Part shown: positions 4,632 through 43,660 of the stretch, one piece after another
Layout of the letters: every line of letters begins with the position of its first letter
Position numbering within the stretch: position 1 is the stretch's first letter
From: Punctularia strigosozonata HHB-11173 SS5
Taxonomy: Eukaryota > Basidiomycota > Agaricomycetes > Corticiales > Punctulariaceae
Direction: 5' to 3'
NCBI RefSeq assembly: GCF_000264995.1
Contig: NW_006767450.1
Span: 1 to 44,726 of the forward strand
DNA length: 44,726 bases
Notes under the pieces: generated by a model
Told to the model about the DNA's origin: nothing
The model's input: the letters and a program-made list of their open reading frames with translations, nothing else
Database searches by the model: none
Position numbers and translations under genes: made by a program

Positions 4632-5526
4632 ATTCTGTCGAGTAGCACTAGCCGGTGCGTATAAGATACATATGAGTAAGTAGGTGTCCCGTGGAGATTA
4701 CATTGAGAGACCCGCGGATGGAGGAGCCGTCAATCTGATGGCTTCAGAAACGACGGCGCTTGGAGAAGGTGGACGGAACGAGGTGACGACGATCGGTCAC
4801 AAGCATGAGCGTGATGTGCGGGCGCCTTTTCCAACATTTTCAAGGTTGACGCTCGCCTTCACCATGCAACGTTTCACTCTGTCGCATGTCGATATCCATC
4901 ACGAGCTTCGACTCTTTCTCAGACAAGCACCTCGCGGCCTTCGGCTCACATCAATATTTCTCTTCATCATAGATGCTACAGCCGACGGCGTCAAGCTATC
5001 CAGCCCGTGTCGTTGTTCCTCGCGGTGCTGTGACATTGCTGTCCGCACTCGGCGCCTCCTGGCCACTGCTGCACCGATATATGTCATGGTATACACTCTG
5101 CTTGATCCATCGCTGATCCGCCGAGGGTCATTGATTCGCTCGTTTCGTCTCTATATCAGCGTACGCTAGTGGCACTGCGACCGCCCGGGCTACTTTAGGG
5201 AATGCAGTCCAACATTTCCGGCCTTCCCTTGCTCGTATCGTGCACCAGGACCTGATAATCCCTCCGTGAGTCATTTTTGTTCAGCATGACGTCCCGGATT
5301 TGCGCACCGCATCCTGACATGGCTCGTAGATGCGGCTGACGATTGGCCCCGTTGCTCTGCAGCCTCGCGGCACAGTCGCTGCCGTCGCACCAGCCCCGCG
5401 CAAGCTATCTCGAGGTCACTGAGGCGCCCGCGCGCTCCTTGCAGATAATGGCACACGGATATTTCGCTAGCTTCCAAGGTGGAATGGAACCCCAACATCG
5501 CGTCCGGCCATCATAGCTGACTGGAT
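4632..5526. other. Intergenic, mostly duplicated 5' flank of the C2HC gene
   Basis: No gene is supported. From about 4765 the sequence is shared with 41990-42769. A reading frame of about 120 codons is open in both copies (about 4810-5170 and 42354-42707). Nearly every base difference between the copies changes the amino acid (for example RLTSI against QFTST), which argues against a protein. Conserved non-coding or UTR sequence is more likely. Confidence 0.6.
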
Positions 5527-5532
5527 TATAAA
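5527..5532 (+). promoter_or_regulatory. TATA box of the left C2HC gene
   Basis: TATAAA lies about 92 bp upstream of the ATG at 5624. The same box sits at the same distance in the other copy (41985-41990), inside an identical GGATTATAAACACCGG context. Confidence 0.6.
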
Positions 5533-5623
5533 CACCGGGCCTGACCCCATCTCCTCCGTACCTTCGACCGTCCTGCGGCATCCAATTTCTGACCGTCCTC
5601 TGGAGCCGGCTAGTCACTGTTAT

Positions 5624-6570
5624 ATGGAAAGCCAGGGTCATCATCGACATCGCCGGCAACAGCTGGTGCTCACACCCAACGGGTGGATTAGCATCTACAC
5701 GCTCGCTACCCATGATCGTCCTCAAGCCCCCGCGTCAACACCCATCCCAAACTCGAACCGCCCACCCTGTACCTCTCCTGCGACTTCATCCGGCCCCTTT
5801 AACCCCGCCTCGACCAGCGCCCCAGACCCAGGCGGCTCCGCGCACGGCCACGTCCAACTGGTACCTCCTCGATCCCGCGTCCCAGTCGCAGCCTTACCTG
5901 CAGGCATCTCCGAATGCCCGCGATGCGGACGCCGCATGCGCGAGGTCGACCGCGCGGACCACAACGCCCGGCAGTGCCCGTCCAGGGCACCCGAGCTGCA
6001 CGACCCTAGCGCGCTCCTCGTCCCACCGGCCGACGCGCGAGACGACGGCGGCGGATACGTCAGACGCCGCCGTCGCGAGCTGGCCGCACGTCCGCTCGGG
6101 TTCGACTACCCGTCGCCGGCTTCCAGCTCCGGCTCCTCGCGCTCGAGCTCGAACTCGCGCTCCGGCACGTCGAACGACGAGCTCGCGCTCGGCGAGACGT
6201 GGCGGACATACCTCGCGAATCGGGCGCGCCGTCTAGGAGGAGGAGAAGGAGGAGGAGGAGGAGCCGCGTATGACGTAGGAGGGAGCTCGGTGAGCGAGGG
6301 TGTTTCGGCGTACCACCCCCGCCCCCGTTTTCCGGCTCCTTCCCATGCCGTAGTATCCCCTCCCGGGCGCGGTTATCACGGGTCGTTCACCGAACCAGGT
6401 GAGTCCGTCGACAATTTCCTCGACTCGGTGCGCCGAGAAACAGAGATAATGACTGTCGCCGTTTCGCGCTCCTCCTGCAGCGTATCGCGCTCTATGAGGC
6501 GGGCAGGATCGCGCGCCCCACGGAGACGAAGGTCGCGTCCGAGGTTTTCGATTTTCTACGAGTTTTGTGA
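5624..6570 (+). CDS. C2HC-motif protein of unknown function, left copy (299 aa, 2 exons)
   Basis: Exon 1 is 5624-6398 and exon 2 is 6446-6570. The donor is a perfect GTGAGT. The acceptor is the second AG of CAGAG (6444-6445). I chose it because it opens the frame CRRFALLLQRIALYEAGRIA, which has GC-ending codons and a helical look and is shared with the other copy; the first AG gives an Arg/Ser-rich low-complexity frame. One likely zinc motif is ECPRCGRRMREVDRADHNARQC: C98-x2-C101-x11-H113-x4-C118. Around it are Pro/Ser-rich disorder, the basic patch YVRRRRRELAARP, a Ser-rich run and a Gly/Glu tract from GGA repeats. No known family was recognised. It may be nuclear and nucleic-acid binding, by inference only. 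It is followed on the same strand by the C2H2 gene. Confidence 0.72.
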
Positions 6571-7879
6571 TGTATCAGAAAAGAAAGGGGAAGGGAGAGA
6601 AGAGAAAATGGAACTTTCCGTCCGTGGAAGTCGTAGGACCACGAGAACGCGATATAGCGAGGCGCCTGTTGATAATGACACGGCGTCTGTTGCGCACCGT
6701 GCGCAGCTGTACCGTCAAGCGATCGAACAGGATACAGAGACAAGGAAATCTGATTGTGCACGGGCATCGGCTTCGTTCAAATCTACCGGGCAAATGCGAG
6801 TTTCGCGTGCACATGCGGGCAAAAATAAGGATATCGTGCACGACAGTAGAGTGCGTGCGATCAGAATGGAGACGTGCGCGGTGCCGGGGTGTGGCGGAGC
6901 TCTTTTTGCAAAGGCTACATGATTATCCCATTAGTTTTGGCGTGGTTGGCTTTCTACAATAGCGTCTTGGCAGCCTTTGTTCGACATTGCGGTTGTTATG
7001 GCTATATTATAATCCGCCTTCGGAATGAGCAATCGCGAGATGGAAGTGGTGCCCCTGTTCGGGCATTCTGGGCAAGGAGGAACAGCGAAGTCGTCGATAT
7101 TGGCATCATTGAAAAGGTCATGTGAGCAACGATATTGCTTGTCCCCGATTGGACGGAGCACCTCCTGCATTTGTGCTGTCATTCTGGTTGCAAGACCTTC
7201 GTTCGCCACAAAGCCGCCTTTCGCGGGCGCAAGGACTTTACATGTTCTCCGCGGCGAAGCCAGCCGTTTGCTGCTCTCCGCGAAAGCTCGTGCGCTCGCA
7301 AGAGTCCTTCCCACTTCCCACCTCAGCCCTGCATTACCCCGCTTGCCTCTGAGCCTCCACGCCGCCTCTTCATCGCCGTCCGGCCCGACTGTCGTTGACA
7401 TTGACAGCCTCGTCGCAAGCTCTATCTCCCAAAAAGGCAAAATTTGGGAGTGACCCGCCATCGGGGCCTTCGAGATCTCCCCAACCCGCGCTTCTTTCGT
7501 GCTTGCTTACTGCGCCTGCCCGACCTGGTGTATTTGAGTGCCTCGGCTACGCTGGCCAAACTTCATATCACACTCTCGCAGAACAATGGAATAAGCGATC
7601 TCTCATCTGCGCATGATGCCATCAGACGACTCTGAGGTGGCAATCCGCGATTGCTGAAAGCCTCAGCACAGAACAATCTCAGCGCCGATCCATTTTTATC
7701 ATTTCTCTCCGCGAGGCATCGTTCCAGCTCCTTGGCGACACGCGTCAACGTTCGGGATCCGCAAAGGCGCAGCACGCCCCCGCCGGTCACGATGATCACC
7801 GAATGCGTCTGTCTCCCCGCTTTGTCTGAGGGTAGGATGATTTCCTGTCTAGCGCGATGGACTGGAACGCCAATTCGGT
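6571..7879. other. Spacer between the two duplicated genes, left arm
   Basis: No supported gene. It aligns in inverted orientation to 39474-40865 but is visibly more diverged than the coding parts and the outer flank. Landmarks shared by both copies include GGCAAAATT(T/C)GGG, GGGCCTTCGAGATCT and CATCAGACGA(C/T)TCTGAG(G/C)TGGCAAT. It probably holds the 3' UTR of the C2HC gene and the promoter region of the C2H2 gene. Confidence 0.55.
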
Positions 7880-7885
7880 TATAAA
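7880..7885 (+). promoter_or_regulatory. TATA box of the left C2H2 gene
   Basis: TATAAA in the context TATAAAGCATGG, 65 bp upstream of the chosen ATG at 7950. The other copy has TATAAAGCAATGG at the equivalent place. The ATG within this context lies only a few bases past the TATA box, so it is probably upstream of the transcription start. That is why the ATG at 7950 is preferred. Confidence 0.6.
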
Positions 7886-7949
7886 GCATGGCCGCGTCCT
7901 CTGAATGGACGAACTTGCTCTTGTGAAGGACATCGACGTCGACCTCGAG

Positions 7950-9426
7950 ATGAGCACGAAACATTTCTCGTTGCCCAGCATCCATGAGATGCTTCCGGGT
8001 ATGTTTTGGTCTTGTATCTATCATTGCATAAGACTGGTACTAATACCAGCGTGTAGGCTACGTTTCTCCTGAGCCTGACCACCTCCACAAAGCTCGACGC
8101 CACTCGACAGCTGAAGCGCTACCGGGACCTCTTCACGTCCCCTCATACGCTCGACCACCTCCGTTTCGTCCGGCCTCGTTGGTATCTGTAAACCCTCCGT
8201 CTACTCGAGCGGTCCGTCACGGCTCGGAACCTGCGCCAGCTCCCCCCGCCCGCACCGATTGCAGGCCATCACCTCCAGCCTACGCATCCAGGGAGCCGGC
8301 AACGCGTCGCGCTCCCCTCCCTCCACGCTGCATCTCGCCTCACCCTCGGTCTCCTGCCCCGTCAGCACAGTTCGCGCCGTATACGCCACCTCATCCTCCG
8401 CGCCCTGTGCGTACGGGAATATACCATACGCGCCCCGTTCCAGGCCCGCAGGCGCAGCCTCCGTTCGTCGTCGTGCGCGGCGTGCCCTGCGCCCGCTTCT
8501 TCTCTACCTCGTCACCCGAAATGCGCGAGGAAGACGAGGCGCGCATGAGGGACCGAAAGCGCACGCGGACCAATGGACCCGAGCATCCCCCACCAGCAAC
8601 TGGTCGCGCGCAAGCGTCTCCTTACCCTGGTGCATACCGAACCGAGGGCAAGCCCGTGAAGATCGAGCAACACGTCATACGCAGTCCCGAGTACGGCTCT
8701 CAGCGATACGGACTACGACAGGAAGACGGAGAGCGCGCTCGCTACGACTTTTCCCCCGCTGCAAGAGTGATCTCTATACCGAACGCGCTGGACGACGCGA
8801 TTGCGCTGCACCAGCAGAGGATGCAATACGGGAGCTTTGATGCCGGAGATAACGCTCAACGGAAGCACGTCTGCCACCTTTGCAACAAACGGTTCAGTAG
8901 ACCCTCGAGCCTCCAGATCCACATCAACACGCATACCGGTGATAAACGTGAGTCTCGCTCCTAACTTTCTCTGCTACTTCCCCCATACATACAGATATCA
9001 TATCGGCGTGTTCGCTTACCCGGGCAACGCATATATATGATCGGTTGCCCCACACGCTGACATCGACGATTACATACAGCCTTCGAATGCCCGCACCCGA
9101 CCTGCGGACGACAGTTCAGCGTGAACAGCAACATGCGCCGGCACTATCGCAACCACATCACCGACACCGATGGGCATCCCGCTCCTCTCGACACGACCAC
9201 ACTGGACGAAGAGAGACAGAGCACCGTCGAAGAGCCCGTCTACGTCCACTTCACCCCGTCCTCGATGCGTCCGTGTATAGAGTCCGATTTTCGCGCGATG
9301 TCTCCTACACCTTCGCCCGCGTCGCCTTCCCGGTCTTCGTCCGAGCCGGAAGTCTCCATGATCGGGTCGGACGACGAGCTCGATGACCAGCCGTCCTCAG
9401 GCTCGGAGTCAGTCGGAGTCGCCTGA
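7950..9426 (+). CDS. C2H2 zinc-finger transcription factor, left copy (428 aa, 3 exons)
   Basis: Exons are 7950-7998, 8057-8947 and 9080-9426. Introns are 58 and 132 nt, both phase 1. The 49-nt first exon encodes MSTKHFSLPSIHEMLP. The LPSIHEM(L/F)P motif also opens the paralogs at 15433 and 39416. A long Pro/Arg-rich disordered middle follows, with conserved islands such as PVRTGIYHTRPVPGPQAQPP and GVPCARFFSTSSPE. Two C2H2 fingers follow. Finger 1 is C289-x2-C292-x12-H305-x3-H309 (CHLCNKRFSRPSSLQIHINTH). Finger 2 is C317-x4-C322-x12-H335-x3-H339 (CGRQFSVNSNMRRH). Intron 2 falls exactly between the fingers, after TGDK. The tail is acidic and Ser-rich. It should be a nuclear DNA-binding protein; the target is unknown. 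The architecture resembles fungal developmental C2H2 regulators. Confidence 0.92.
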
Positions 9427-10981
9427 TTGCGTGGTTCGAAAGAAAACCCCAAGAAAAATACTGCCTGTGTGCGGCTACTCGCTGCAATATCTACACCTGT
9501 TGTACTGGAGTGGCGTTGATAACATGACGACCTTGAGGGCTTCGTATGGATTACTCCATCGCAGTATCATCGGCGGCCTGCGTGTGGCGAGGAATCTCCC
9601 ATTGATAAGCGCAGGAACCCATGTGTCGAATGAGCGAAACCCGAGTGACCGCATACTTGTATTCCAAGAATATCTACGACAACACGAGGCTCGCGCGGGA
9701 TCGGCACCCTTTCAGAGGGAGAGCCTTGAGTGATCGACCCAAGTACTCACGAGAGGTACCCGCCTGGGCGCGATTGACCTCCAGCACGGTGACCTCATTC
9801 GAAGCTGGCTTAGTAGTACGATCGCCAGACCTCGACAGGCGTCGAGAGATGTGCGTACGAGCGGTATCGGCTGTGCGCAACGTATATTCATAGCGTTGTT
9901 CAAGCAGTGGTGTACATACGCGTACATTGATATACATACACATCTGTCCTCGTTGACGTCCTAACGTGAATCGTGCATAAGCCCGCCTTGATCTATTCGC
10001 GATGCTGACATGATCCACTCGGGGTATTCAAGGCCTTCAAACAACCGGTCCGTGGGATCACTATTCAAGCCGCAGCAGCATGGGATCTTTGGGAGCAAAG
10101 AGGTACACGAGGCCTCTCGGCCTCCGGCCTGCGGCGTGTATCCATAAACCCATGTGTTTATCTGTGCGCCCCATAGTAAGCGGACAGTCGCTACCGTTCA
10201 TAACCATGTTCGGATGCGGACACGCACCGTGATCCGCCGCTGACCCAACGCGATGCACCTCGCATCGCCTCAGGGACATGGCGCAGAAAGTTCAGAGAGT
10301 CTGATCAAGCGGGCCGCCGTGCTCCGCTGCGGTCGTCGCTAATTGCCATCCGCGATTTGCGCAAGGTCGCTGCGTACTCTGCTAAGCAATCGCGGCCTCA
10401 TACGGTGCTCTGAGCAAAGATGCAAGCCCGGCGCGCCCTTGTCTATCATTGATTGAGCGGGAGACCGTGATCCAGAGAGACGATGGCGAACCTGAGTGTG
10501 GTGGAGCGATACATACTAAACGCCGCAACGCGAAAGCGTCCGCGCGTAAGGGGAAAAAGGTGAGATAACGTTGATCCCGTTTCGTTTCTTTCAGGGTCGC
10601 TGGTGAAGGTTCCTACCGCAGGACTGCGATCAGCTTATGTTTGTCCGAGAATGGGTAAATCGCGAGTACATACGGTCCGTAGTGCTCGGGAGCAGATACT
10701 GTATCCCCGACGATCGTGTTGGCTCCGGCGGATCTGGCCTTGCATGTGCGACCCTCCTCTTGCTAGTATATTGCGTTGCAGGGCCGCTGGTGCAAAGTCG
10801 TACTGCGATCAGCTATGTTGGTCCGAATACGGATAGATAGCGTGTACATACCGTCCGTAGCGCCCTAGAATAAAAATACACAGTAGACGGTATTGTCTAT
10901 CGCGCATCTGATTCTGCCGAGGTTCGGCTCGAATCAACCATAAATTTCCTCTTGAAGGCATCTAGGCTTACCACGTATACC
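9427..10981. other. Gene-poor interval downstream of the left arm
   Basis: No coding exon with splice sites or a recognisable domain was found on either strand. The inverted duplication ends at the start of this interval, since the sequence after the C2H2 stop does not match the other copy. It contains an imperfect tandem duplication (10594-10867), and its last 8 bases are the target-site duplication of the adjoining MITE. Confidence 0.5.
10594..10867. repeat. Imperfect ~90-bp direct repeat, ~187-bp period
   Basis: Copy 1 (10594-10686) and copy 2 (10781-10867) share GGG(T/C)CGCTGGTG, ACTGCGATCAGCT(T)ATGTT, GTCCGA and GTACATAC(G/C)GTCCGTAG in the same order, with substitutions and small indels between. 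Neither copy encodes a recognisable product. Confidence 0.75.
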
Positions 10982-11375
10982 AGGACCCCCGTTAATACAG
11001 TTAAAGGTCGGAATATTCGCTGACCCAAAATGAGTCGTATTGTCGGCAATTTTCTGCTTCCATCGGCACGTTTTTGTCGGCAAATATTCCGACATCGGGC
11101 CTGCGGCGCCCATTTCGTCCGCGCTCTATTCCGGCATCGTGGGAATTAATGGCTATATCTGGGCTGTTCCTCTCCGGGCCCTCGATGGTTCGATCCTTTT
11201 GTCGACAAATATTCCGACCTTGGTTTGTCGCTCCGAACGGATGTCGTCAAAATTATACCGGCCTGCGGCGCCCTCAGACGTGCTTTTGTCGGCAATTATT
11301 CCGACGTACGGCCCTTTTCAGGGCCCAAAATGTCGTCGGAATATTCTAACATTAAACCGTATTAACGGGGGTCCT
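10982..11375. mobile_element. hAT-like MITE, 394 bp, with 8-bp target-site duplication
   Basis: The element begins AGGACCCCCGTTAATAC and ends with the exact reverse complement of those 17 bases. The inverted similarity continues imperfectly to about 37 bp (through GGAATATTC on the left). It is flanked by the direct 8-bp repeat CGTATACC (10974-10981 and 11376-11383). The inside has no coding capacity. It holds three spaced copies of a near-palindrome GTCGRCAAWTATTCCGAC (11076-11093, 11201-11218, 11288-11305), partial ones, and GC-rich GGCCTGCGGCGCC segments. Terminal inverted repeats, 8-bp TSDs, small size and no ORF fit a non-autonomous hAT-superfamily element; assignment to hAT rests on TSD length. 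Confidence 0.82.
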
Positions 11376-11383
11376 CGTATACC

Positions 11384-14300
11384 CCTGCTACGGCGTTACC
11401 ATGGTTATCGACATGGCGAAGATCGATACAGATTCCGATCTTCCCAACTTGATTGCAAGGTGCAACGTCTACGCTGATATCGATTGAAGAAATACGGTGA
11501 GAAACTCGACGCGAATAGACTTACAACAGCGAACGGCGCTCTCTCACCATCAGCGATGACAACCCACACGGCCACCGCGCGTTCTTCGGCGAAGGTCTGA
11601 ACTCTTGGGCGAGAATGGGCTTCGGGCCCTTCGTGGCGTGGGGTCGTGGCGGTACGCAATATCGCAGCCGGGAGATCCGTCCGTGAACGCGGGCGCATTG
11701 TGGATTCGCTATTCTTCGTGTGGAAATTCGTATCAGAAAGGGATCGGATCTTGGTGAGGCGGTACGCACCTGTGTGAGCTCGATCCACTGTTTGCATACA
11801 AAGAACGTTGGGGGGACTGTACCGCGCCGGGACGCGGTGGGTCTAGCGATGCACGAAGGAATGTTTCGAACGCGGGAGGAGAGACCGAGCGTGAGCGCCG
11901 TCAGTTGATGCACAGATGGGATAGGTAAGGGAACTAACTTGCCAGGATCGCGCGGGATCAGAGATGCACGCACGGAGTGACCGCATCGGCGAGGTTTTGA
12001 TAGCGGTGAGACTGGGCTTGATGCATTGGAGCACCGCGAGATGCGGTGCACTCCACAGGGACCGTACCGCCGGCGATGGAGGGAAGACGTTAGCGTATCA
12101 AACAGAACCGATGTGGAAGGGCGAGCGAGCGATCGGAGGGCAATCGGACTGAGTTACGTCCGGCGGCAGTGGACCAGTGGTGCTGGTGAAACAAGATGGG
12201 ATTCCAGAGCGGCGCATCGCGCCAGCAGGCCCACCCGGAGAGCCGTGATCCAAAGAGTCGAAAAGAAGAGCAACGGTCACGGGTGCAGAACCGGGTTTCC
12301 AACTCTATCAGAGAGATCACGCCGAGCAGAACCATCCCGTCGACATCTATGGAGGGAAGGGGGAATGTCTCTCATGCCCCAAGCGGCTGGTAGCCATCAA
12401 GGAGCGTGAGGCGTACATCTGAACGAAGGCCTGTGGCAGAGCCCCGCATCAGTTCTCTTGCCCGAGGTTTCGCGTTGGGTGCGTGGATAAAGCTCAAAAT
12501 CTGCGTGTGCTCAGCCCGCCTCTGGACGGGTGGGAGAGGGCCGGTGCGTCCCAGTCGGTTCGAAGCTGATGCGTGTGATGCCGCGCGCAGGACGGGCGCT
12601 GGTTCGGGATTGTTGGCCGTACGATCTCGTCCGCGGTGAACAGCTTGCTACGTCGGATTGGATGTTGGATACTTCGCCTGGGTAAACGGGATGTTGGGAT
12701 CTCGTTCCATCGCAAGCGGGTGTCCGGTTCCGAGCCCTGAGCGCGAGCAACACGAGGCGATCGTACCCTGACGGTTCTTTGGGTCTAGTCCGCGCCCGTG
12801 ACGAGGAAGGTGCTGGAAGGAGGATAACGTTAGGATTCACCCCGACGTCATATCCACAGCACGCGTCCGATGAAGAGACGCATGGGCGATTAGTCGATAA
12901 ACGTGCCGCGGACGATCCGTCGTCATATCTGAGACACACCCGTATGGTGTAACTGAATGCGACGAATGTCCCCCCACGAGCGGGACGCGCGACAGATCGT
13001 AAGTATTCTTGTCGCTCGATGGCGTCGATAAGCACCAGACGGCCCGGGCGATTGCCCGGGAGAAGAGCATCAAACGGGCGCGCGCGTGCAAGCCCAAGAT
13101 CGTGCGCCATACCGATGAGGCCCAGGGACGAGAGAAAACCAAAATCGTCATTTTCTTTCTCACCGCCACGGACGCGCGGCGCGGCGTCCAAGGCACGAAA
13201 AAGGGGGGAGCCGTTGGCATAGCATCCGCGTGCTTTTTTTATTATTATTTTTTGGTTCGTGAGCATCCTCGCCAAATCGGGAAAGGGATCACGCAGAGCT
13301 CTTTTCTGTGCCCACGACAGAGAGGGGCCCGTTGCCGTTTCCGTTCTGATGGGGAAATTGAAAAGAGGGATCCGCGCCCGGCATGTGGCGCGGTAAACGA
13401 TTCGGATCGGGGCCCGTACGTTGCCGATGTGAGGAGAGAGGAATGCCGAAAAGCGTTTGGGTTCTCGCCTCGACAATCCCGGAGGCTTTTTTTTTGCGTC
13501 CGCGGAGGTTCTCACCCTGTCTTACTTTTATACATTTCGGTCTCTGGACGTGACTGATCTGCACGCAATATTGAAGAGGGTGTTCGTGGTCGCGATGCCA
13601 ACTCGCGTTGGATTTGAGAGTGCGGGGATTGGGCTTGCGTTTAACACGGGGTAACACCGAGGAGGTTAGAGATGGCTTTGAGATGGCTGCCCGAACGCGA
13701 CCCCGTGTTTTAGATATGACGAAAGGCAACGCAATCTGATTTGCATCTTCTGGATCGGATTGGAGAGAGAGGAGAGGGGGGACGGACACGGGCAATCCCC
13801 GCAAATCACCACGCGGCGTTGCCGACGCCGCTGGCTTTGGCATACGTACTCAGTCGCCGTTCTGTTAGGAAAGAAGGCCTGCGATTTCACCGTATCCAGG
13901 GAACATCCGACTTTGTCTTACATGTCAGTTTGACCTGTCCCCGCTGGCTGGAAGCGCGACTCGTGCCCCTTCTCCGTTTGACATGTCGTGAGCGGCCGAT
14001 GTGGGTCTCGCGTCCCCCGGTGGTCGATAGACTTTCGAGTGCCGTGCCATGGGAAGACCGTTTTTTTTTTTCGCCCGGCTGGGGGCTTACTTCGTTTGGC
14101 AGGGCGCTTCCATATCCAGGGACGGTTGCACAGCAGTTCAGCCCGAATTGGGCGGGTGATCGGACTGGTAATCGAGGGGCATCAGTGCGTCACGCGCAAA
14201 TCCTCCGGAACAAGCAAATCGGCTGAGATCCGGATGCGACCGAGAGGATATGGCAATTTGGGATGGTGGTCGGTTTACATTATCGTTTGCCCCGGAAGAT

Positions 14301-15307: not shown

Positions 15308-15313
15308 TATAAA
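15308..15313 (+). promoter_or_regulatory. TATA box of the central C2H2 gene
   Basis: TATAAA in CTCGCTATAAAGCGTCCC, 120 bp upstream of the ATG at 15433. The intervening sequence is C/T-rich, like fungal 5' leaders. Confidence 0.6.
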
Positions 15314-15432: not shown

Positions 15433-17088
15433 ATGCGCGTCACCCTCCCCAGCATCCACGAGATGTTCCCCGGTACGTTCCCCCCCGCACCCTCGCGCCG
15501 AACCATCGCCCTCATCGCCGCCCGCAGAACACCTCGCGCGCACCGCGCAGCCCCCGACCCCGCCGCCCTACCGTCACGCGACCTACCCGACCCCGACGTC
15601 GCCGTCCTTCCCGTCCTCGCCGGCCTCGCCCCGCACCGCCGCCCAGTACCGCCAGCCCCACGGCCCCGAGTACAGCGCGGGCACCTACGCCCGCCCCCGC
15701 CCCTACTCGCCTCCCCCGGCCGCGGCCACGTACGGCTTCCACCACCCCGGCGCCCCCACCGCCTTCCCCGCGGTCTCCGGCACCACCACCGCCGCCTCCT
15801 CCCCCGCCGCCGCCGCCGCCGCACACAAGGCCGCCAACTCGCCCGCCTTCCGCGTCGCCATGCACCCGCACCCGCACCCGCACCCGGCGCCCCCGCGGTC
15901 TCGGACGTCCGCGATGCCCTCGCCGCCGCCCACCTCGGCCTCGGCCTTCTTCACCTTCGACTCGTCCGCGCACGCGCACGTCCACCCGGCCGCGGCGTCG
16001 ACTTCGCAGGCGGTGCCGGGAGCGGCTGTTCTCGCTGGCACCGGCAGCCCGCCCCTGCTCGTCCCCGCCGCCACCGCCCGCTCGGCCGAGCACCCCGCGT
16101 CGCAGCGCCGTCGCGAGCGCAGGGAGCTCGCCAAGGTCCTCCCCGCGCCCTCGGCCCGCCCGCGCGCGGGCTCGACCAAGTCGGCCGCTTCGCCCGTCGT
16201 CGCCGCGAAGGAGGAGGGCTCTCCCGGCCAGCAGAGTTTTCAGCTCGGGTCGGCGTCGTCGACCAGCGAGGCCGACTCCGCCGCTCGCGATGAAGAGGCG
16301 GCCGAGGCCGAGGCCGACTCGAAGCACGGAGACAGGAAGCACCAGTGCCCCGAATGCAAGAAGCGGTTCAACCGCCCTTCGTCGTTGCGCATCCATTTTA
16401 ACGTCCACGACGGTAACAAACGTGAGCGTTCCCCTCTCCTCGCTTCGTCTCTTTGTCTCGCATGTTCTGATGTGTTTCATTGCGATTTTTTTCTGCCTCA
16501 CAGCGTTCAAGTGCCCGTTCCCCGGATGCGGACGGTTCTTCAACGTCAACTCCAACATGCGCAGGTAAGACCAAATTTTTTGTTATTTACTCGTGCGCCG
16601 CATCGTGACAGCGTTCTTTCTCACTCAGACATTTCCGTAACCATGGCCAGCCCTCGATCGCGAAGCCAGGGCCGAACCACTTCCCCTACGACGGACAGGC
16701 CTCCTCGCCTTCGGCCGACGCCGCGCGGCCTTCGCAGTCGCCGCGTCAGCTTCAAAAGGCCTATCCTCCCCTCGCCGTGTCCGACTCGATGGACGTCGAC
16801 GAAGACGAGGACGAGGATATGGCTTACAACGCTCCTCGACGCATCATTTCCTATCGCGCCAGCGTCGCCGCCGCCGCGGCGGCGTCCTTCGTCGGACAGC
16901 CGCCGGCGCCTCGCCACATCTCGCCCGCGTCCGAATCGGGCTGGTCGCAAGACAGCTCCAACTCGTACGAGTCGTCGTCGAATCACCACGGCGGCCACAT
17001 GCCGCTCCATCAACGGTACTCGTACGAGCGCTCCCGATCGCGCTCGCACTCGTTCTCTCCGGCGGGCTCGGACGCAGACGAGCGATGA
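15433..17088 (+). CDS. C2H2 zinc-finger transcription factor, central paralog (484 aa, 4 exons)
   Basis: Exons are 15433-15472, 15528-16421, 16504-16564 and 16629-17088. Introns are 55, 82 and 64 nt. The 40-nt exon 1 plus the start of exon 2 reads MRVTLPSIHEMFPEHLART. A Pro/Ala/Tyr/His-rich region with Ala and His-Pro repeats follows. Finger 1 is C287-x2-C290-x12-H303-x3-H307 (CPECKKRFNRPSSLRIHFNVH). Finger 2 is C315-x4-C320-x12-H333-x3-H337. The third intron cuts finger 2 just before its first His, between RR and HFRNH. The two duplicated paralogs lack this intron. The tail has an acidic VDEDEDEDM patch, an Ala run and Ser/Arg repeats. It is predicted to be a nuclear DNA-binding regulator. 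Third positions are very GC-rich, so other frames are spuriously open. Confidence 0.92.
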
Positions 17089-25311: not shown

Positions 25312-25360
25312 GTGAGCAACGCAGGACAAGAGGCCTACAGCGGTGATGAGTTGGTGAGAC

Positions 25361-32908: not shown

Positions 32909-35900
32909 ATGACGCCGGCGCCCGCGTCTCCGGAACGCTCGCCATCGTCGGTCGGCACCGCCGTCAACGGTGTCGTCAAAAAGGAGCCCACGACCGTGTC
33001 GGCCGTTTTGCCCCGCTCGCACTCGCCGTCGCCGCTCAGGAGTCCAAGGGCGACCATCGCATTGCCTGCTTTAGACACCGCCGCTGTTCGACCTCCGACG
33101 CGTGACGAGAGCCCCGCCGCGCTCGCCGGCTTGCTGTCCGCCAGTTACAAGGAGATCGAGGAGCTCAAGCACGAGCTCGCCGTCGCCCAGAAGCGCGCCG
33201 CAAAAGCCGAGAGACTGCTCGCAGCGGTGAGCCTTGTCACGCCCCTATCGTTTTGGCGCGTTTCTGACGCCTGTTGTCGTGCCCCCCTTCAAAGGTATCG
33301 CACCCCTCATCACCCCATCCGTCCTCTAAAGATGGACATGATTCAGGAAAAATGCCTGAAGCGGCCATAAAGGCCATCACCGATGCTGAAACACGCGCAG
33401 AACGAGCAGAGCTCGCGCGCGACGAGGCCATGGCACGCCTCAAGTGCGTATATGCTATTTCCTTCGATGAAACTCGCTTCCTGACGCGCACGCGATCTCC
33501 GTTCAGGGTCGTTCAAGATCTTTACCATCAACTAGACGATTATCTGAACACTGCCCAATACCGCATGGCCGATGCACGCGCAGGTATGCATATATTCAAT
33601 CGTGATGCGCATGTGTTTCCGTTTCTCTCGGGTGCTGTCTCTTCCGAGGTTCCCGAAGCGCCACTCAGGCAGTGAAAAGGCCGCTCGTCTCCCCGCACCT
33701 CCCGTTGCAGTATACAGATCAGCGCGCTGACAGCCATGTTGCTCCACAGGTTTCCGCAAGGTCATCGATGAAGGTGGCGGTCGAATCGTTGTCACACCCA
33801 TCAACCTTCCCGGCGAGGTACGTTCTCCTTCTCAACCTCCTCCTTCCAACTTTCTATTCTTTTGCCATGTACTTATTTGCTCCGTACCCCTCTTTTACGT
33901 CGCTTTCGCCACCAATAAACACCAGTATCAGACCAGTCCTCACGCCCGCCCCAAACAGCCTCCCGCCACCGCGCAAATCATCAGCGCCTCGTCGCACGTG
34001 CCCTCGTCCCGTTTCCCTCTTCCGACGCCGCCATTCAACGTCGGCCCCTCGTCCTTAAACCTCTCCAACGCCGCAGCCGGCCCTTCTCTCTCGAGCGCAA
34101 CCCGACCCATCACCGCTCTGAACGTACCCGCGGGCTCCGCCTCCTCCTCCCTGAGGAGGAGCTCCAATGCCCAACTACCGATCTCGGCGGGGTTGCAGCT
34201 TCCGCCACCGCCGCACCCGCATCCGCACGGGCACGCGTACCAGGGAAGCGCCGCGCCGCAGTACCCGCCCGCGCCCTCCGCCTACACCTCCTATGCCGCT
34301 CGGGAACGGGAACGCGAGCGAGACGAATCGTTCGGGAGCAGGAGGATGAGGGAAGAGAGCATCGATAGCGCGTACCCGCACAAGCGCCCGCGCGGAGATG
34401 ACCGCGACCCGCATCGCGAGCGTGAACGCGAGCGGGAGAGGGGCAGGGAGCGAGAGAGAGCCAGGAGGGATTCCTACCTCGACCAGGTGATTCGATAACG
34501 CTTCCCGATTTGCAACGACGACGTGACTGATGGGTGGACGTTTTTTTTCGCAGCGCCCGTCGTATGCGCAGGGGCAGCCGCTGCCTCAGGCTTCGACGTC
34601 GATGTCTGGCCCTGGACACCACCCGCTTCCGCCCGTTCAGCACTCGCAGCCGGCGTACGACCCTCGTTACCACCAACGCCCCACCGCAAGCCCCGACGAA
34701 CCCAGGAGACGATACCCAGACGATAGCAAACACCCCCAAACCCACGCATACCAGCAGCAGCAGCAACAACAACAACAGGCTCACGCGCGCCACCAGAGCC
34801 AGCGCAGGAGCCGGCGCTCGCGCAGCCGAAGCGGCGGCAGCTCGCACAGCCGGAGTACGTCGCGCTCGACGTCGCCGTCGCTGGACGAGATGCTCCTCGA
34901 GGCCGCCGACGGCAGCGAGGAGCGTGAGCGCAGGAGGTCTGGCAGCCCGGACTACCGCGATCGGCGGAGGGAGCGGTACCCGCCGGGCGCGTACGGGGTG
35001 AACGGCCATTATGGTGCGCCGCCGCCGCACGCGATGGGACCTGGCTCGTACCACGCCGGATACCCGCACGCGTCGGGCGCGATGCCGCCTGGGTAAGCAA
35101 TCAATCCTTCGCCTTTGCGACGGATCGGAGGGTCTGACGTTTCCGCTCCCGTGACATTTATAGCCCGCTTCCCGCGCCCGGTCAACTGCAAACGTATCAG
35201 ACGCATATTTTCGCTCCACCCGTGACGGGCGCGCCCGTCAAGAAGCCCAAGGGCGGCGCACCGCCGATGCCGCTCCCCGGTCCCGGAACAGCGCCCCAAG
35301 GGCACGCCGTTCAACAACAGCCTCTCGTCCCCGCCGGCAGCACCGGTAGCGTGATGACGCTCGGTCCCAACGGATCCGTCATCTCCGGCCCATCGACCGT
35401 GGGCGGCCCCGGCGGCTTCCCGCCGACGAACAACTCTGGGCAGCGCATCTGCCGCCAGTGCGGTGTCGCGGGGCGTTACAAGGACGGCAAGTGCGTCGAG
35501 AAGTGGGGGCCGGGACCCGAGGGCCCGGGCACGGTGTGCGACCGATGCCGGAAGAAGATGAAGAGGGTGGAGAGGAGGGGGACGATGGAGGCACAGCAGA
35601 TCGCGCGAGGGGACGCGGCCGCGCTTGCGCATCACCATTCGATACCGAGGCAGCCGCCGACGGCGGTTGGGCTGCAGAGGACGGGGACGGAGGCGTTGAG
35701 CGTGCCTGCGCCGCAGGGACCGGGCCTCGGGCCTCACGGCACGCAGCTGCTGTCGCCTCGAGGGTCGTTTCGCGAGGTGACGAATACCGGCGTCGGCGCC
35801 GCCGTGAACGGTACATCGGCACGCAAGTCTTCGTCGCCTTACACGTCCGCGCGTCGTCATTTCTCCCCGCCTTATGGACACGGCACGTCGGATCGCCACC

Positions 35901-36193
35901 GCGCCAAGTCGCATTCGGGGTCGAGCGTGAGCGGGTCGCCGTTGAGCCAGCCTTCTGGCGCGAGCAGCACCGAGAAGGTTCCCTCGCCCGAGCTGAGGGA
36001 CTCGCGCACCGGCAATAACGCCATGGAGGTGGACGAGGGGGATGCGGATGCGGAAGGCGACGAGATCGACGCGGACGCGGACGGGGAGACCAACGTCGAG
36101 GGTGAGGCCGAGGTTGACGCTGAGGCCGACGCCGATGCCGAGTTGCTTGAGGCGGTCGACGCGGCCGAAGCTGCTCATGCTGGCGACGACTGA
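32909..36193 (+). CDS. Coiled-coil protein with atypical GATA-like zinc finger (913 aa, 7 exons)
   Basis: Exons are 32909-33226, 33295-33443, 33507-33583, 33750-33817, 33926-34486, 34554-35092 and 35164-36193. Introns are 68, 63, 166, 108, 67 and 71 nt. The N-terminus is Pro/Ser-rich with VKKEP, a SUMO-site-like motif. Residues about 75-175 form heptad-like helices (YKEIEELKHELAVAQKRAAK, AETRAERAELARDEAMARLK, VVQDLYHQLDDYL). Disordered regions follow, with Arg-Glu repeats, a poly-Gln run and SR repeats. The zinc motif is C667-x2-C670-x25-C696-x2-C699, reading ICRQCG...KWGPGPEGPGTVCDRC then RKKMKR. Its second half mimics the GATA finger W-x-x-GPDGP-x-x-LC-x-x-C. The tail is strongly acidic (Asp/Glu-Ala repeats). 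It is probably a nuclear transcription or chromatin factor; DNA specificity is unknown. Confidence 0.87.
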
Positions 36194-37958
36194 GCGCCTC
36201 CGAGGTTTTTTTTTTCGTTCGTCATTTTTGTTCGCTGCCCCCCCCCCCCCCCACTGCTTTCGGTTTCGTTGCATATGCCATTTGTTGTCTCTCGTCCATC
36301 GCACTGATTTGTACCGAAGCCATTTTTTTCCACCTCAGTTTTGTGCCATGTTGTATCATATCTATCTTATCGAGCATTCAACATTATCCTTTTTTTGCGG
36401 ACCATCCACGGTGCGAGTGCTTTGACGGAACACCCTATGTGGTGGTAGTGACCATAGCTTCATCAGCATCTTGCCTTTGGGCACGAGATCAGATAACCTC
36501 GAGACCCCGTAACGTGTTTCTCGGCGATGACCGACCGCACGGGCGCGCGCGCAAACGGGAAACCACCAGGCGCGAGATTCTCGTCCAACGATTGACTTCG
36601 GTTGATCCGTGAAAGGAGGGGGCGGGTATCGCCGGCGCTATCTCGCGCCCATCGGACGCGGTGACGTCGGTGAAAGCCTTGCAGCTGCGTCGGTGGTGGG
36701 GCGGCTTCCGATGCCGTAGGCAGTACGAGAGGCGGGGGTCGCCACGAATGGGAGGGGGGGGGGGCTCATATGACTTCGGGCACGACTGGAACAGTGATAC
36801 ATAACACATGATACGTAGCGCAGCGTTAGAGCGTATACGTCCCCCCCGCGCCTCGAAGCTCGCAGCTCGATCGCTCGAGGTCCGTGGGTCCCACCCTCCT
36901 CCTCCCATCCCGCCTGCGCGGCCCACGCTCCACCTCGTTGTTACGGCGACTTCGAACTCCCCGTCTTCCGCGCTGCATCGTCGCCTTTTGGCCGCTCTGT
37001 CCAGAGAGCCCGGGGATCCAGAGAGTGGTGAGCGAGAGCAAAAAAGCAAAGTGACCTCAACTCTTCGGGGGGCCCCCCCGCTCGCAGCGACGTGTTGGGT
37101 CTCCCTCCCTTCGCGGCCGCTGGGGAGTTTTGCTGAAACGCAGGGTAGTCACGCCCGTCGTCACCGAGACCTGAGGAGCGCGGCTTCTTCTGGCTATGCT
37201 CCGAAGATGGAAGGGGGGGGGCGCCAGGGAGGAATGAGCCAACGGGGAACACCGCGAAAACGCCACAGCCGCGCGATCTCCACATCTCCACATTGTTTTT
37301 TTTGGTCAAAAGTGATAGCTGTTTTCGCTCGCGTTGGCCGTTGGGGGAGGGTAGGGGGGTAGGGGAAAAGAGAGAGAAAAAAGGGGGCGTCCTAGAGTCA
37401 CACGGTCTTTCGCGCTGGTATTTAGCAACGTGCTCGAACGCGTTCAGACGACGCGGGGAAGGGACAGAGGTATGCCAAAACCTCCATATGCCGGACCGGG
37501 GCGTTGAGCGCGGCCGGCCGCCGCCGCCTCCACCTACGAAGCACGTTTTGGAAACACACTACCACCACCGTTCCCAATATAAGTGACAAATGATTTTCGA
37601 GGGACAAGCAAGCATCTCCTTTTGACCCGAGGATGTGACATTTGCGGGATGAGATGATGAAGGAGTGAGGAATGTAAGGGAGCCACTGCTCACCATTATC
37701 GCCCCTCTTCCCCTCCCCGTTTGTGTGCCCAGGTGGGCGGGCATGCTTGACATCCTGAAGGGTCACAGTGACCCTAAAAAGTGCAGAAGGCAAAAAGCGG
37801 GGCGAGCTCGGGCGATTTTTTTTTTCTGTCTAGATTGCTTGCAACGGGACTCATGGGTAGAAGGAAGCATTGCGGGCAGGAGGAGTCTGGGGAGGGAGAT
37901 GAGCTGGAGCGGTGTGAGGAACAAAGCAGATTGTGCCGTGTAGGGCTGCCCACCAAAG
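36194..37958. other. Intergenic between GATA-like gene and right arm
   Basis: No gene is supported. It opens with the likely 3' UTR of the GATA-like gene: a T run at 36206-36215 and 15 consecutive C at 36238-36252. G-rich runs follow (about 36751-36763, 37205-37211 and 37341-37363). It ends against the C2H2 stop codon, where similarity to the left arm begins. Confidence 0.5.
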
Positions 37959-39416
37959 CTAGCACTCTGAGCCCGAGTCCTCGTCTTCGTCGGAACCTAT
38001 CATCGCGACATCCGGCTCGGACGAAAACCGAGACAACGACGGCGTGGGCGAAGGTGCAGGAGGCGTCGCGCGAAGTTCCGAGTCCGCGCTCGGGCGCATC
38101 AAGGACGGGGTGAGGTGAACGTAGACGAGCTCGTCGTCGGTGTCCTGATCCTCATCGTCCGGCGGAACGGAAGAAGGAGGAGCGGGAGCGTGGGCGGTGC
38201 CGCCGTCGGCGTCGGCGATGTGGTTGCGATAGTGCCGGCGCATGTTGCTGTTCACGCTGAACTGCCGGCCGCAGGTCGGGTGCGGGCATTCGAAGGCTAA
38301 AAAAAAAAAAACATAATCCGTCGATCAGCACGTCGATATCGGTTACCGGCAGGGGGGAGGGGCGTTGGTAGGAGGAGAGAAGAGACGGATGGGGGGGGGA
38401 GCGAAGAACTCAACGTTTATCGCCGGTATGCGTGTTGATGTGGATCTGGAGGCTCGAGGGCCTACTAAATCGTTTGTTGCACAGGTGGCAGACGTGCCTC
38501 CGTTGAGCGTGATCGCCGTCGTGAACGCTCCCCAAGCGCATCTTGTGCTGGTGCAGCGCGATCGCGTCGTCCAGCGCGTTCGGTATGGAGATCACTCTTG
38601 CCGCGGCGCGGGAGTCGTAGCGAGCGCCTTCCTCCCTCGACGCGTATCGCTGAGCGCCGTACTCGGGATTGCGCATGACGTGCTGCTCGATCTCCACGGG
38701 CTTGCCCTGGGTTCGGTATGCACCAGGGTAAGGAGACGCTTGCGCGCGACCGGTTACCGGCGGGGGATGCTCGGGTCCATCCGTACGCGTGCGCTGTCGG
38801 TCCCTCGTGCGCGCCTCGTCTTCCTCGCGCGTTTCGGGAGACGAGGTAGAGAAGAAGCGGGCGCAGGGCACGCCGCGCACGACGACGTACGGAGGCTGCG
38901 CCTGCGGGCCGGGAACGGGGCGCGTGTGGTATATGCCCGTGCGCACGGGGCGCGGGGGAGGAGGCGCCGGCGCGTACGGCGCGAAGCGCGCGGAGGGGGC
39001 GGGAGAGCGGGGTCGGGGAGAGACGCAGCGGGGAGGGAGGGGAGCGCGATGCGGTGCCGGTTCCCGGGATGGGTAGGCCGGAGGTGGTGGGGGTCTGTGA
39101 ATCTGATCTGTGCGGGCGGGGGGAGCTGGTGCCGGTGCCGAGCCGTGACGGACCGCTCGAGTGGAGGGAGGGATTACGGAGACCGACGAGGCGGGACGAA
39201 ACGGGGGTGGTCGAGCGTACGAGGGGACGTGAAGAGGCCCCGGAAGCGATTCGGCTGCAGAATGACGCCGAGGTTTGTGAGGGTGGTAAGGTTCCGGATT
39301 TATATAGCCTAATCCGCTGACCTCAGTCGCTGTTGACGGCGATGATACATCCGGGATGGAAACTTACCGGGAAGCATCTCGTGGATGCTTGGCAAGGAGA
39401 TGTTGTTTGAGCTCAT
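37959..39416 (-). CDS. C2H2 zinc-finger transcription factor, right copy (426 aa, 3 exons)
   Basis: Exons in gene order are 39368-39416, 38415-39308 and 37959-38296. Introns are 59 and 118 nt, in the same positions and phases as the left copy. Exon 1 encodes MSSNNISLPSIHEMLP. Finger 1 (CHLCNKRFSRPSSLQIHINTH) is identical to the left copy; finger 2 keeps CGRQFSVNSNMRRH. The middle has scattered substitutions and small indels, and the acidic tail is shorter. The second donor reads C|GTTGAGT where the left copy has C|GTGAGT, so an extra T weakens the consensus. The matching acceptor has 13 T directly before AG. An in-frame upstream ATG (39461) lies just past the TATA box and is probably not transcribed. 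It is likely functional, provided intron 2 still splices. Confidence 0.88.
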
Positions 39417-39467
39417 ATCGACCGAAGAACGGTTCGTTAGGGTCAGTCGCCCCAGTTCAGCCATTGC

Positions 39468-39473
39468 TTTATA
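39468..39473 (-). promoter_or_regulatory. TATA box of the right C2H2 gene
   Basis: Read on the minus strand this is TATAAA in ATATAAAGCAATGG, 52 bp upstream of the ATG at 39416. It is the counterpart of the box at 7880-7885. Confidence 0.6.
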
Positions 39474-40865
39474 TCGAGGACGAACGCTCGCGGGTGCCAT
39501 GCCAGAACGGAAAAGGACCTACCCTCAGAAAAATGGCGAGACGGAACGCTTTCGGTGATCATCGCGACCGGCGGGGGGGCATGTTGCGCCTTTGCGAATC
39601 CCATACATTGACGCGTGTCGCCAACGAGCTGGGACAACGCCTCGCGGAGAGAAAGAATATACATGGATTGGTGGTGGGCTACTCTGTGCGGAGGTTTTTT
39701 TCAGCTTTAGCAAAAGCGAATTGCCAGCTCAGAATCGTCTGATGGGATCATGCACGGACGACGGGCTCACTGCACATGGACTGTCCTGCGAGACTTTGCT
39801 GCGCGGTCAATTGATGATACGACGAGAGCCCAAGCGCTGATGAAGGAGATATATATATATTAAAAGAGAAATCGAAGACCCATTTCCGGTAGAGGATGCA
39901 GCGTAGTCAGCAAGCACGAAGGAAGCGCGGGGACAGTGGAAGATCTCGAAGGCCCGGATGGCGCGTCGTCCCCGAATTTTGCCCTTTCGGGTGATAGGCC
40001 TCCCTGCGTCGCGGTCGCGTCGCTCGGCCCGGACGGCGATGAGGAGCAAACGTGGATTCTGTCACTATGGAGCACCAAGGCCGCGGAGTCCAAGCAGCGC
40101 TGAGGTTGGAAGTGGAGAGTACTCTCGCAAAGCACGCGCTTTCACGGGGAGTCGAGAGCGGATCGGTGCGCCGCGGAGCGCAGATAAGTAGAACGTTCCT
40201 GCTCCCGCGAGAGACGGCACTGAGGTGCAGGAAGACCTTGGGACATCCTGATGGGTACGGCAGCGTAGATGCAGGTCGTTTATTTTATTGGTTTCAGCAA
40301 GTTGAAAACGGAGTCACTGCTCACGTGACCTATTCAATGAATCCGATGAATCGGACGACAGGTTCGCCGCTGCTGTCCCGAGACCCCCGAACCCCCGTAT
40401 CACCTACTTTCCAGTGGTCTCGCGACTATGATATGTACTCCGAGGGGACAATATCGCCTGACGTCGCACGAAAGCTGCAAAGGCGTTGCCATAAGACGGC
40501 AAGACACGTCGAAACCGACGAGACTAACTCACAGCCCATCGCGGAGGCGCGCTCGAGTTCGGTTAGCCTTTGCAGGAAAAAAAGTAGAAGAAGAAAAATC
40601 CTCGCCACACCCCGGCACCGCGCAACCCTTGCGTCTTCCATTTTGATCGTGCTCTACTTAGAACGGCGCGATATTAAGTATATTCGAACAAAAGCCGATG
40701 CCCTCGCATCCAATTTTTTCCTTGCGTCTCCATCACTAATCCCTTCGATCGTCCGACGAAAACGTCGACGGAACAGGTGCGCATGGCGCGCAACAGACGC
40801 GGCCGTCACCCTCGATAAGCGGGTCTCCCTCTGATGCGCGCGACTGCGGACCGCCACGGATGGTA
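39474..40865. other. Spacer between the two duplicated genes, right arm
   Basis: No supported gene. It aligns in inverted order to 6571-7879 with more substitutions and indels than the rest of the arm. It contains (TA)n at about 39850-39860, absent from the left copy. Open frames here do not correspond to those in the left copy, which supports a non-coding nature. Confidence 0.55.
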
Positions 40866-41892
40866 TCAAAGTTTCCGATTTTTTTTTTCTCTTTTCTTAC
40901 CTTCTCTCATCTTCTCTGCATTCCCTTTTTCTTTTCTGATGCATCCCAAAACTCGTAGAACCTCGAGAACCTCGGACGCGACCTTCGTCTCCGTGGGGCG
41001 CGCGATCCTGCCCGCCTCATAGAGCGCGATACGCTGCAGGAGGAGCGCGAAACGGCGACAGTCATTATCTCTATTTCTCGGGGCACCGAGTCGAGAAATT
41101 GTCGACGGACTCACCTGGTTCGGTGAACGACCCGTGATAACCGCGCCCGGGAGGGGATACTACGGCACGGGAAGGAGCCGGAAAACGGGGGCGGGGGTGG
41201 TACGTCGGAACGCCCTCGCTCACCGAGCTCCCTCCTACGTCGTACGTGGCTCCTCCCCTTCCTCCTCCTCCTCCTCCTCCTAGACGGCGCGCCCGGTTCG
41301 CGAGGTACGTCCGCCACGTCTCGCCGAGCGCAAGCTCGTCATTCGACGTGCCGGAGCGCGAGCGCGAGCTCGAGCGCGAGGAGCCGGAGCTGGAAGCCGG
41401 CGACGGGTAGTCGAACCCGAGCGGACGTGCGGCGAGCTCGCGACGGCGGCGTCTGACGTATCCGCCGCCGTCGTCTCGCGCGGCGGCCGGTGGGACGAGG
41501 AGCGCGCTAGGGTCGTGCAGCTCGGGTGCCCTGGACGGGCACTGCCGGGCGTTGTGGTCCGCGCGGTCGACCTCGCGCATGGGGCGCCCGCATCGCGGGC
41601 ATTCAGAGATGCCTGCAGGTAAGGCTGCGACTGGGGCGCGGGATCGAGGAGGTAGCATTTGGACTGGGCCGGGCGCGCTGCCGCCTGGGTATGGGGCGCT
41701 GGTCGATGCGGAGTTAAAGGGGCCGGATGAAGTCGCAGGAGAGGTACACGGTGAGCGGGTTGAGTTTGGGATGGGCGCTGACGCGGGGGCTTGAGGACGA
41801 TCTGGGGTAGCGAGCGTGTAGATGCTAATCCACCCGTTGGGTATGAGCACCAGCTGTTGCCGGCGATGTCGATGATAGTCCTGGCTTGCCAT
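40866..41892 (-). CDS. C2HC-motif protein of unknown function, right copy (326 aa, 2 exons)
   Basis: Exon 1 is 41115-41892 and exon 2 is 40866-41068, with a 46-nt intron using the same GTGAGT donor and tandem-AG acceptor as the left copy. Without splicing the frame closes at TAG (41072-41074), which supports the intron in this copy. The zinc motif ECPRCGRPMREVDRADHNARQC is kept (R to P in the loop). The C-terminal helix ends EVLEVLRVLG. The left copy stops with TGA where this copy has GGA, and reads on for 27 more codons into a Lys/Arg-rich tail (KEKGNAEKMREGKKREKKN). The extension comes from sequence that is 3' UTR in the left copy. The function is unknown; see the left copy. Confidence 0.7.
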
Positions 41893-41984
41893 ACAACAGT
41901 GACTAGCCGGCTCCAGAGGACGGTCAGAAATTGGATGCCGGAGGACGGTCGAAGGTACGGGGGCGAGGGGGGTCGATTCCGGTG

Positions 41985-41990
41985 TTTATA
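41985..41990 (-). promoter_or_regulatory. TATA box of the right C2HC gene
   Basis: Minus-strand TATAAA, 93 bp upstream of the ATG at 41892, in the same context as 5527-5532. Confidence 0.6.
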
Positions 41991-43660
41991 ATCCGGTCAG
42001 CTATGATGGCCGGACACGATGTTGGGGTTCCATTCCACCTTGGAAGCTAGCGAAATATCCGTGGGCCATTATCTGCAAAGAGCGCGCGGGCGCCTGAGTG
42101 ACCTCGAGATAGCTTGCGCGGGGCTGGTGCGACGGCAGCGACTGTGCCGCGAGGCTGCAGAGCAACGGGGCCAATCGTCAGCCGCATCTACGAGCCATGT
42201 CAGGAAGCGGTGCGCAAATCCGGGACGTCATGCTGTACAAAAATGACTCACGGAGGGACCATCAGGTCCTAGTGCACGATACCGATACGAGGAAGGGAAG
42301 GCCAGAAATGTTGGACTGCATTCCCTAAAGTAGCCCGGGCGGTCGCGGTGCCGCTACCGTACGATGACATAGAGACGAAACGAGCGAATCAATGACCCTC
42401 GGCGGATCAGCGATGGATCAAGCAGAATGTATACCATGACATATATCGGTGCAGCAGTGGCCAGGAGGCGCCGAGTGCGGACAGAAATGTCACAGCACCG
42501 CGAGGAACAACGACACGGGCTGGATAGCTTGACGCCGTCGGCTGTCGCATCTATGATGAAGAGAAATGTTGATGTGAACTGAAGGCCGCGAGGTGCTTGT
42601 CTGAGAAAGATTCGAAGCTCGTGATGGATATCGACATGCGACAGAGTGAAACGTTGCCTGGTGAAGGCGAGCGTCAACCTTGAAAATGTTGGAAAAGGCG
42701 CCCGCACATCACGCTCGTGTCTGTGACCGATCGTAACGTCGACGTCGTCGCCTCGTTCCGTCCACCTTGGTCCTTCTCTGTAAAGTATATAGCTTATGTA
42801 AAGCTATGCTACGACGCGACTAGACCGAAACAGAACAGAACCGAGTGTATTGAGCTAAAGACGACATACATGATTGTCTGTACGGCGCTTATATCTTAGC
42901 GGTCCGGATTATACACGGCCAGACAAGATGACGGCGGAAATCGCGTGGATTACACGCCATGTGGTTACCATGCGCCCAATCCACGGGAATCCACGCCGCG
43001 TCCAGTGTCAATCGACGAGATTGGCGCGCAGTGGAATGCCCTTCGACCCAAGCTGTAGAATACGACTGTACCGCGGTTCCGTTGAGAATACATTGTGTGG
43101 CCAGTCGTAATCCATCGTTTCGCTTTGTGTTTTCCACCGCAAGCTACCAGCGCCGTCACGTGTGCAAGGACTTGCCAAAGTCAATGGGTGATTCGTGCAG
43201 CAGCGGCAACGCGCGCGGTCAAGCTGCTCCAACTCATCTCCCGCCAACAGCACCAGCGAAGACGATTAGACGATGGGTCACTCTCGCCATGGCCAAGGGC
43301 ACGGGCCTTGGTAGAGTCATGCCACTCTCTGAGCCTGCTCAGAGAGTATGGGTCGGGAGATGGGGTGTGCGTCTATAGCGGTTGTGCCCACCGTTGCAAG
43401 ATGAACCCCCGGACGACCTGGCATGCCAACCCCCTATCGTCTACGCGTCCTCACGGCGCTGTGCGCATTTCGGATATGTTTGATATGCTGAGGGCATGGT
43501 ACGTTCTGAGTTTTCCTCTTACCGTTGTAAACCCAATGCGCTCATACTTTCATCCAGGTGTGCCGTTGCACTTTTTACCTAATCCCGGTCGCCATTCGAC
43601 CACCGCAGTGGCCTCGTCGCCGCAACTGCCTCCACTCATGTGCCCACGCCCGTCACAGTG
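41991..43660. other. Duplicated 5' flank (to 42769), then unique intergenic sequence
   Basis: Up to 42769 this mirrors 4765-5526. From 42770 to 43660 it is unique. It may contain the promoter or unrecognised upstream exons of the next gene. Plausible acceptors occur at CATCCAG (about 43558) and ACCGCAG (about 43608), but I could not build a convincing upstream exon. A strong hairpin lies at 43324-43347. Confidence 0.45.
43324..43347. repeat. Inverted repeat, 11-bp arms, 2-base loop
   Basis: ACTCTCTGAGC, then CT, then GCTCAGAGAGT. The arms are perfect. No gene function can be attached to it. Confidence 0.85.

Follow-up and report, generated by a model that had tools for sequence, protein, structure and literature searches.

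An inverted duplication of a C2HC-motif and C2H2 zinc-finger gene pair in Punctularia strigosozonata, with a divergence mosaic that suggests gene conversion

The flip/flop region of Saccharomyces chromosome XIV consists of inverted copies of about 4.2 kb, each holding two protein genes, that lie 24 kb apart (PMC9731477). In the reference strain they share 97.6% identity over their whole length. Noncoding DNA is kept similar as well, for which the authors propose gene conversion, and inversion of the region is observed between strains and between species (PMC9731477). On Aspergillus chromosome 1, ectopic gene conversion among paralogues is accompanied by altered gene structures (PMC12844118). 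Within the Basidiomycota, the C2H2 family contains duplicated genes across basidiomycetes, dispersed and tandem copies included (PMC12295980). Here we describe a locus of Punctularia strigosozonata HHB-11173 SS5 in which a C2HC-motif gene and a neighbouring C2H2 zinc-finger gene are present twice, in facing arms of about 4.7 kb. The stretch analysed (the window, positions 1–44,726) is the start of contig C18 (585,901 bases), in a genome of 33.57 Mb and 32 contigs.

Of the known systems, the flip/flop region comes closest. Both loci have inverted two-gene copies of similar size and spacing, with homogenised sequence (PMC9731477). In Punctularia, however, only about 1.8 of the 4.7 kb would be homogenised, to about 95%, the homogenisation being read from low divergence, and the locus is known from one assembly in one orientation. 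The yeast region is also located near a centromere, whereas the present locus is probably near a chromosome end. The Aspergillus case shares conversion of paralogues within one region of a fungal chromosome but draws on two species and phylogenetic analysis (PMC12844118), in contrast to one pair in one genome here. The Basidiomycota survey has duplicated C2H2 genes in common with our locus, but in the portion available it describes no inverted gene pair and has the term 'gene conversion' once, in the title of a cited work (PMC12295980). Our literature search found nothing on interlocus gene conversion with inverted, duplicated genes in a basidiomycete, nothing on the PSIHEMFP motif and, among the papers listed, no description of the present locus.

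BLASTN comparison of the window with itself gave a single large inverted match, 4766–9377 against 42768–37984 (78.6% identity over 4870 columns), and global alignment extended the match as far as the stop codons of the C2H2 genes (9426 and 37959). Arm A (4766–9426, plus strand) and arm B (37959–42768, minus strand) face each other at a spacing of about 28.5 kb. A preliminary description of this DNA had placed two opposed arms of ~4.7 kb at 4765–9426 and 37959–42769, in agreement with both alignments. When the whole genome was searched with arm A DNA, both arms and nothing further were recovered, and the C2HC protein at E ≤ 1 found the two arm copies alone; counts from these genome-wide searches are lower bounds. 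The C2HC start codons (5624 and 41892), one C2HC intron and two C2H2 introns are common to both arms, and TATAAA is located 57–97 bp 5' of the gene starts in each (for C2H2, measured from the downstream of two candidate starts). The same description had assigned a C2HC and a C2H2 gene with matching introns, TATA boxes and starts to each arm, and the alignment recovered all of these features. The inverted duplication of the gene pair is confirmed. What had been missed is the mosaic of identity along the arms, together with the probable subtelomeric setting and a third C2H2 paralogue.

A model with one break places a change in divergence after position 6586 (2-log-likelihood interval 6543–6587), with a gain in log-likelihood of 230. 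To the left, the arms differ by 4.8%, and to the right by 28.4%. The low-divergence tract (4776–6586 on the plus strand in arm A; 40928–42758 on the minus strand in arm B, with ends taken from the alignment) spans coding and noncoding DNA alike: 34 of 807 noncoding sites upstream of the C2HC gene differ (4.2%), as do 5.4% in C2HC exon 1 and 2.5% in the C2HC intron. Past the break, divergence is 43% in the intergenic DNA at 6584–7300 (306 of 711 sites), 28–30% at 7301–7904, 13.7% in C2H2 exon 2, 21.5% in C2H2 exon 3 and 42–58% in the C2H2 introns. At fourfold-degenerate sites, the C2HC genes differ at 9 of 168 and the C2H2 genes at 59 of 209 (p = 2.4e-9). Synonymous divergence (dS) is 0.073 and 0.393, respectively, so that by both measures the silent age of the two genes appears to differ about fivefold, although they belong to one duplication. 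The DNA just past the break is still homologous, with a local score of 34 where 60 block shuffles gave 19 at most, and the alignment stays in register; the original duplication thus already reached the C2HC 3' flank.

The two ends of the tract are unlike. On the right, high identity stops abruptly within diverged paralogous DNA, and on the left it stops where detectable homology stops. Abrupt edges of similarity had been noted for the arms as a whole. The left edge is indeed sharp, but the right edge of the arms, at the C2H2 stop codon, is what an old duplication would show in any case, because noncoding DNA in the C2H2 half is already 28–58% diverged. A 32-nucleotide all-purine run (6577–6608, plus strand) lies at the identity break in arm A, and its longest counterpart run in arm B is 20 nucleotides. 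The window contains four purine or pyrimidine runs of at least 25 nucleotides, and of the other three, two are inside the arms but away from the break; a role of the run in the tract end is a guess. The differences in the left tract are 31 C/T, 19 A/G and 37 transversions, a mixed spectrum, on which repeat-induced point mutation was rejected.

The C2HC gene of arm A (5624–6497, plus strand; 263 amino acids) has exons at 5624–6398 and 6481–6497, separated by an intron at 6399–6480 with textbook borders (GTGAGT...TGCAG). In arm B (41017–41892, minus strand) the structure is the same, with exons at 41892–41115 and 41033–41017 and an intron at 41114–41034. An apparent frameshift between the arms vanishes on splicing, because the one-base difference sits within the intron. 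No curated C2HC family in Pfam matched the protein, the best score being Zn_ribbon_TFIIB with 19.1 bits, below the cut-off of 22; as this zinc-ribbon match is sub-threshold, the label C2HC rests on a motif read by eye. No PDB match was found at E ≤ 1. A structure model built from 2 sequences tentatively places CxxC...H...C on a β-β-α fold (strands 95–97 and 104–106, helix 107–116) with moderate confidence; block means of the confidence score pLDDT are 70–80 at residues 91–120, with a whole-protein mean of 47.9. Between the arms, nonsynonymous divergence (dN) of the whole gene is 0.049, and omega (dN/dS) is 0.67 (0.37–1.31), indistinguishable from 1. Codons 1–95 have a dN of 0.092 and a dS of 0.082, compared with 0.017 and 0.085 for codons 96–203, which hold the motif; in the latter, 4 of 11 changes are nonsynonymous against 73% expected (binomial p = 0.012). 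The contrast in constraint between the two parts (18 nonsynonymous and 6 synonymous changes versus 4 and 7; Fisher p = 0.057) is only suggestive, the border at codon 95 having been picked after seeing the alignment. These values give some support to the motif as a working part of the protein.

The C2H2 gene has three exons and two fingers in both arms. In arm A (7905–9426, plus strand) the exons run from a start at 7905 or 7950 to 7998, from 8057 to 8947 and from 9080 to 9426. In arm B (37959–39464, minus strand) they run from a start at 39464 or 39416 to 39368, from 39308 to 38415 and from 38296 to 37959. Two candidate starts are given because an upstream in-frame ATG is present in both arms. 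The arm A protein matches Pfam zf-C2H2 at 1.7e-10 in 2 stretches (41.2 bits, cut-off 25.2). Between the arms, dN is 0.121 and omega is 0.31 (bootstrap 0.22–0.41); the C2H2 genes have been under selection. One window within the gene, 8459–8558, differs at 1 of 19 fourfold sites; it was picked after viewing nine windows, and we do not claim a second small conversion patch.

The donor of intron 2 in arm B (38414–38409, minus strand) reads GTTGAG through one extra T. The same donor is GTGAGT in arm A and in a related gene on contig C10, and GTGAGC in the paralogue in the middle of the window. Left unspliced, the arm B intron is predicted from its sequence to give an immediate TGA and to remove the second finger, so the arm B gene may lose this finger. 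Against decay in arm B stands the second finger, whose protein sequence is the same in both arms. GTTGAG could reflect recent damage or a sequencing error, or be a rare donor. The gene structures are shared, as the preliminary description had it in calling both pairs intact, but this abnormal donor makes the claim doubtful for the arm B C2H2 gene. Its suggestion that selection retained both pairs agrees with the values for the C2H2 pair and for the motif-bearing half of the C2HC gene, with the same reservation that the arm B C2H2 gene is possibly damaged now.

The probable explanation is one old inverted duplication, followed by interlocus gene conversion that covered the C2HC gene together with its upstream DNA and 3' flank. 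A segment holding the C2HC gene and its C2H2 neighbour would have been copied long ago, in inverted orientation and probably close to a chromosome end, to a second, facing site, after which both copies would have drifted apart as paralogues. At a much later time, one of the C2HC regions would have suffered a break that was repaired with the other arm as template, rendering about 1.8 kb nearly identical again. The conversion would have ended near 6586 in the purine run, without reaching the C2H2 genes or the intergenic DNA. Subtelomeres are places in which ectopic recombination is common. As the C2HC 3' flank was already part of the first duplication, a single later event, the local overwriting of 1.8 kb, explains the rest. 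We infer conversion as the cause of the mosaic, and with it the date, the direction and any role of the purine run. Two points weigh against this explanation. It depends on a contrast in divergence within one genome rather than on a tree, and, as its main weakness, high identity and detectable homology stop together on the left at about 4766. Repair with homology on two sides would not obviously give such an edge, which one-ended copying fits as well or better.

One-ended copying is accordingly a serious rival, although we consider it unlikely. The C2H2 gene and some upstream DNA would have been duplicated early, and the C2HC unit copied later by break-induced replication. This would have started in the upstream DNA that the C2H2 copies shared, crossed the C2HC gene and ended at 4766 in a junction with unrelated DNA. 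Neither blastn nor tblastx matches anything beyond this end of the tract, and the C2HC gene is known in the genome as these two copies alone, again a lower bound. Such copying needs an extra gene gain that is unnecessary under conversion. In addition, older homology may survive in the outermost stretch of the tract (4776–4816), where 4 of 41 sites differ and there is an 11-base gap, though this is not significant. A duplication of a single age, in which strong selection or infrequent mutation preserved the likeness of the C2HC half, is very improbable. Divergence of the upstream noncoding DNA (0.043) is somewhat below the C2HC dS, so some constraint on the promoter is possible. Constraint alone, however, cannot explain the left tract, because C2HC codons 1–95, in which dN about equals dS, were free to change and yet differ little (few fourfold differences across the gene), and the jump from 4.8% to 43% occurs at a break located within 45 bp.

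An artefact of assembly or haplotype, in which one of the arms would be an allele or a wrongly joined copy, is most unlikely. The window does lie at a contig end, in repeats, and the evidence comes from the assembly rather than from reads. Divergence between the arms is nevertheless 4.8% to the left of the break and 28.4% to its right, and both arms are located in one contig of more than half a megabase. Identical flanks had been named beforehand as a sign of such an artefact; the outer flanks gave no match, and the inner flanks gave just weak translated matches that are direct, not inverted (best E 4.7e-4).

The mosaic suggests that the arms have recombined ectopically in the past, which makes inversion of the middle plausible. 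A stronger proposal, that the arms are an active recombination pair in which repeated conversion keeps the C2HC genes alike and an occasional crossover inverts the roughly 34 kb between the tracts, strikes us as quite improbable. If true, the pair would be a basidiomycete counterpart of the flip/flop region, and inversion would swap which C2H2 copy is nearer the chromosome end, with possible telomere position effects on expression. Were strains to carry the middle in both orientations, the locus would join the cases in which inversion goes with homogenised gene pairs, here in a basidiomycete and probably close to a chromosome end.

Conversion between gene copies has precedents in yeast and other fungi; the locus is a real, well-supported example of it, of modest interest unless strains show inversion. 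It offers a compact case of adjoining duplicated genes whose apparent ages are very different, the overwriting of one of them being the most likely cause. Here, an age for the duplication taken from the C2HC gene alone would be misleading.

The start of the window is probably subtelomeric. Positions 1–710 (no strand assigned) form a repeat that recurs at many contig ends and includes tandem units of 65 and 156 bases. Positions 1–800 have 32 matches in the genome, self included: 20, spread over 13 contigs, are at most 2.5 kb from a contig end, 7 are farther away, and 5 fall on contigs without a listed length. This distribution is good but not final evidence of a subtelomere, because repeats can themselves cause contigs to end. 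There is no telomere repeat array.

The third C2H2 paralogue (15433–17088, plus strand, 3' end approximate) has exon 1 at 15433–15472, finger 1 at 16337–16435 and finger 2 from about 16503. It begins with LPSIHEM and has its first intron at the position found in the arm genes. In Pfam, finger 1 reaches 22.1 bits against a cut-off of 25.2, and an extra intron seems to interrupt finger 2. Outside C18, the C2H2 match with the best score is the one on C10. On contig C5, four weak C2H2-finger matches in short open frames (58–123 amino acids) are spread over about 41 kb (1658490–1699280), possibly another local cluster.

A mobile element was rejected as an account of the locus: six-frame Pfam scans of 9.4–38.4 kb (hits up to E 0.05) and 1–4.8 kb contain no transposase or other mobile-element domain, with 4.8–9.4 kb covered in one frame and by the two arm A products and 38.4–44.0 kb lying outside the six-frame scans, and arm A was found only twice in the genome. 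A scan of C18:44000–52400 against Pfam, plus strand alone, was without hit. A mating-type locus was likewise rejected, as all 25 STE3 family matches are on contig C12 and none on C18, and the six-frame scan of 9.4–38.4 kb contains no homeobox. The C12 matches form a dense pheromone-receptor cluster at 141735–199840, with 25 exon matches in 58 kb. STE3 receptors and multicopper oxidases in the genome suggest a basidiomycete; a search for 5.8S rRNA gave no match at E ≤ 0.001, with 39 of 1266 first-look candidates scored. In the middle stretch, Pfam identifies little besides a pectate lyase gene at about 24.3–24.9 kb (minus strand, 1.7e-7); near 35.5 kb, a GATA-like cysteine motif recognised by eye alone has no Pfam hit. 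Outside arm A, 2.1–4.6 kb contains a HAD-like hydrolase (plus strand) and an NmrA-like match (minus strand) just below the cut-off.

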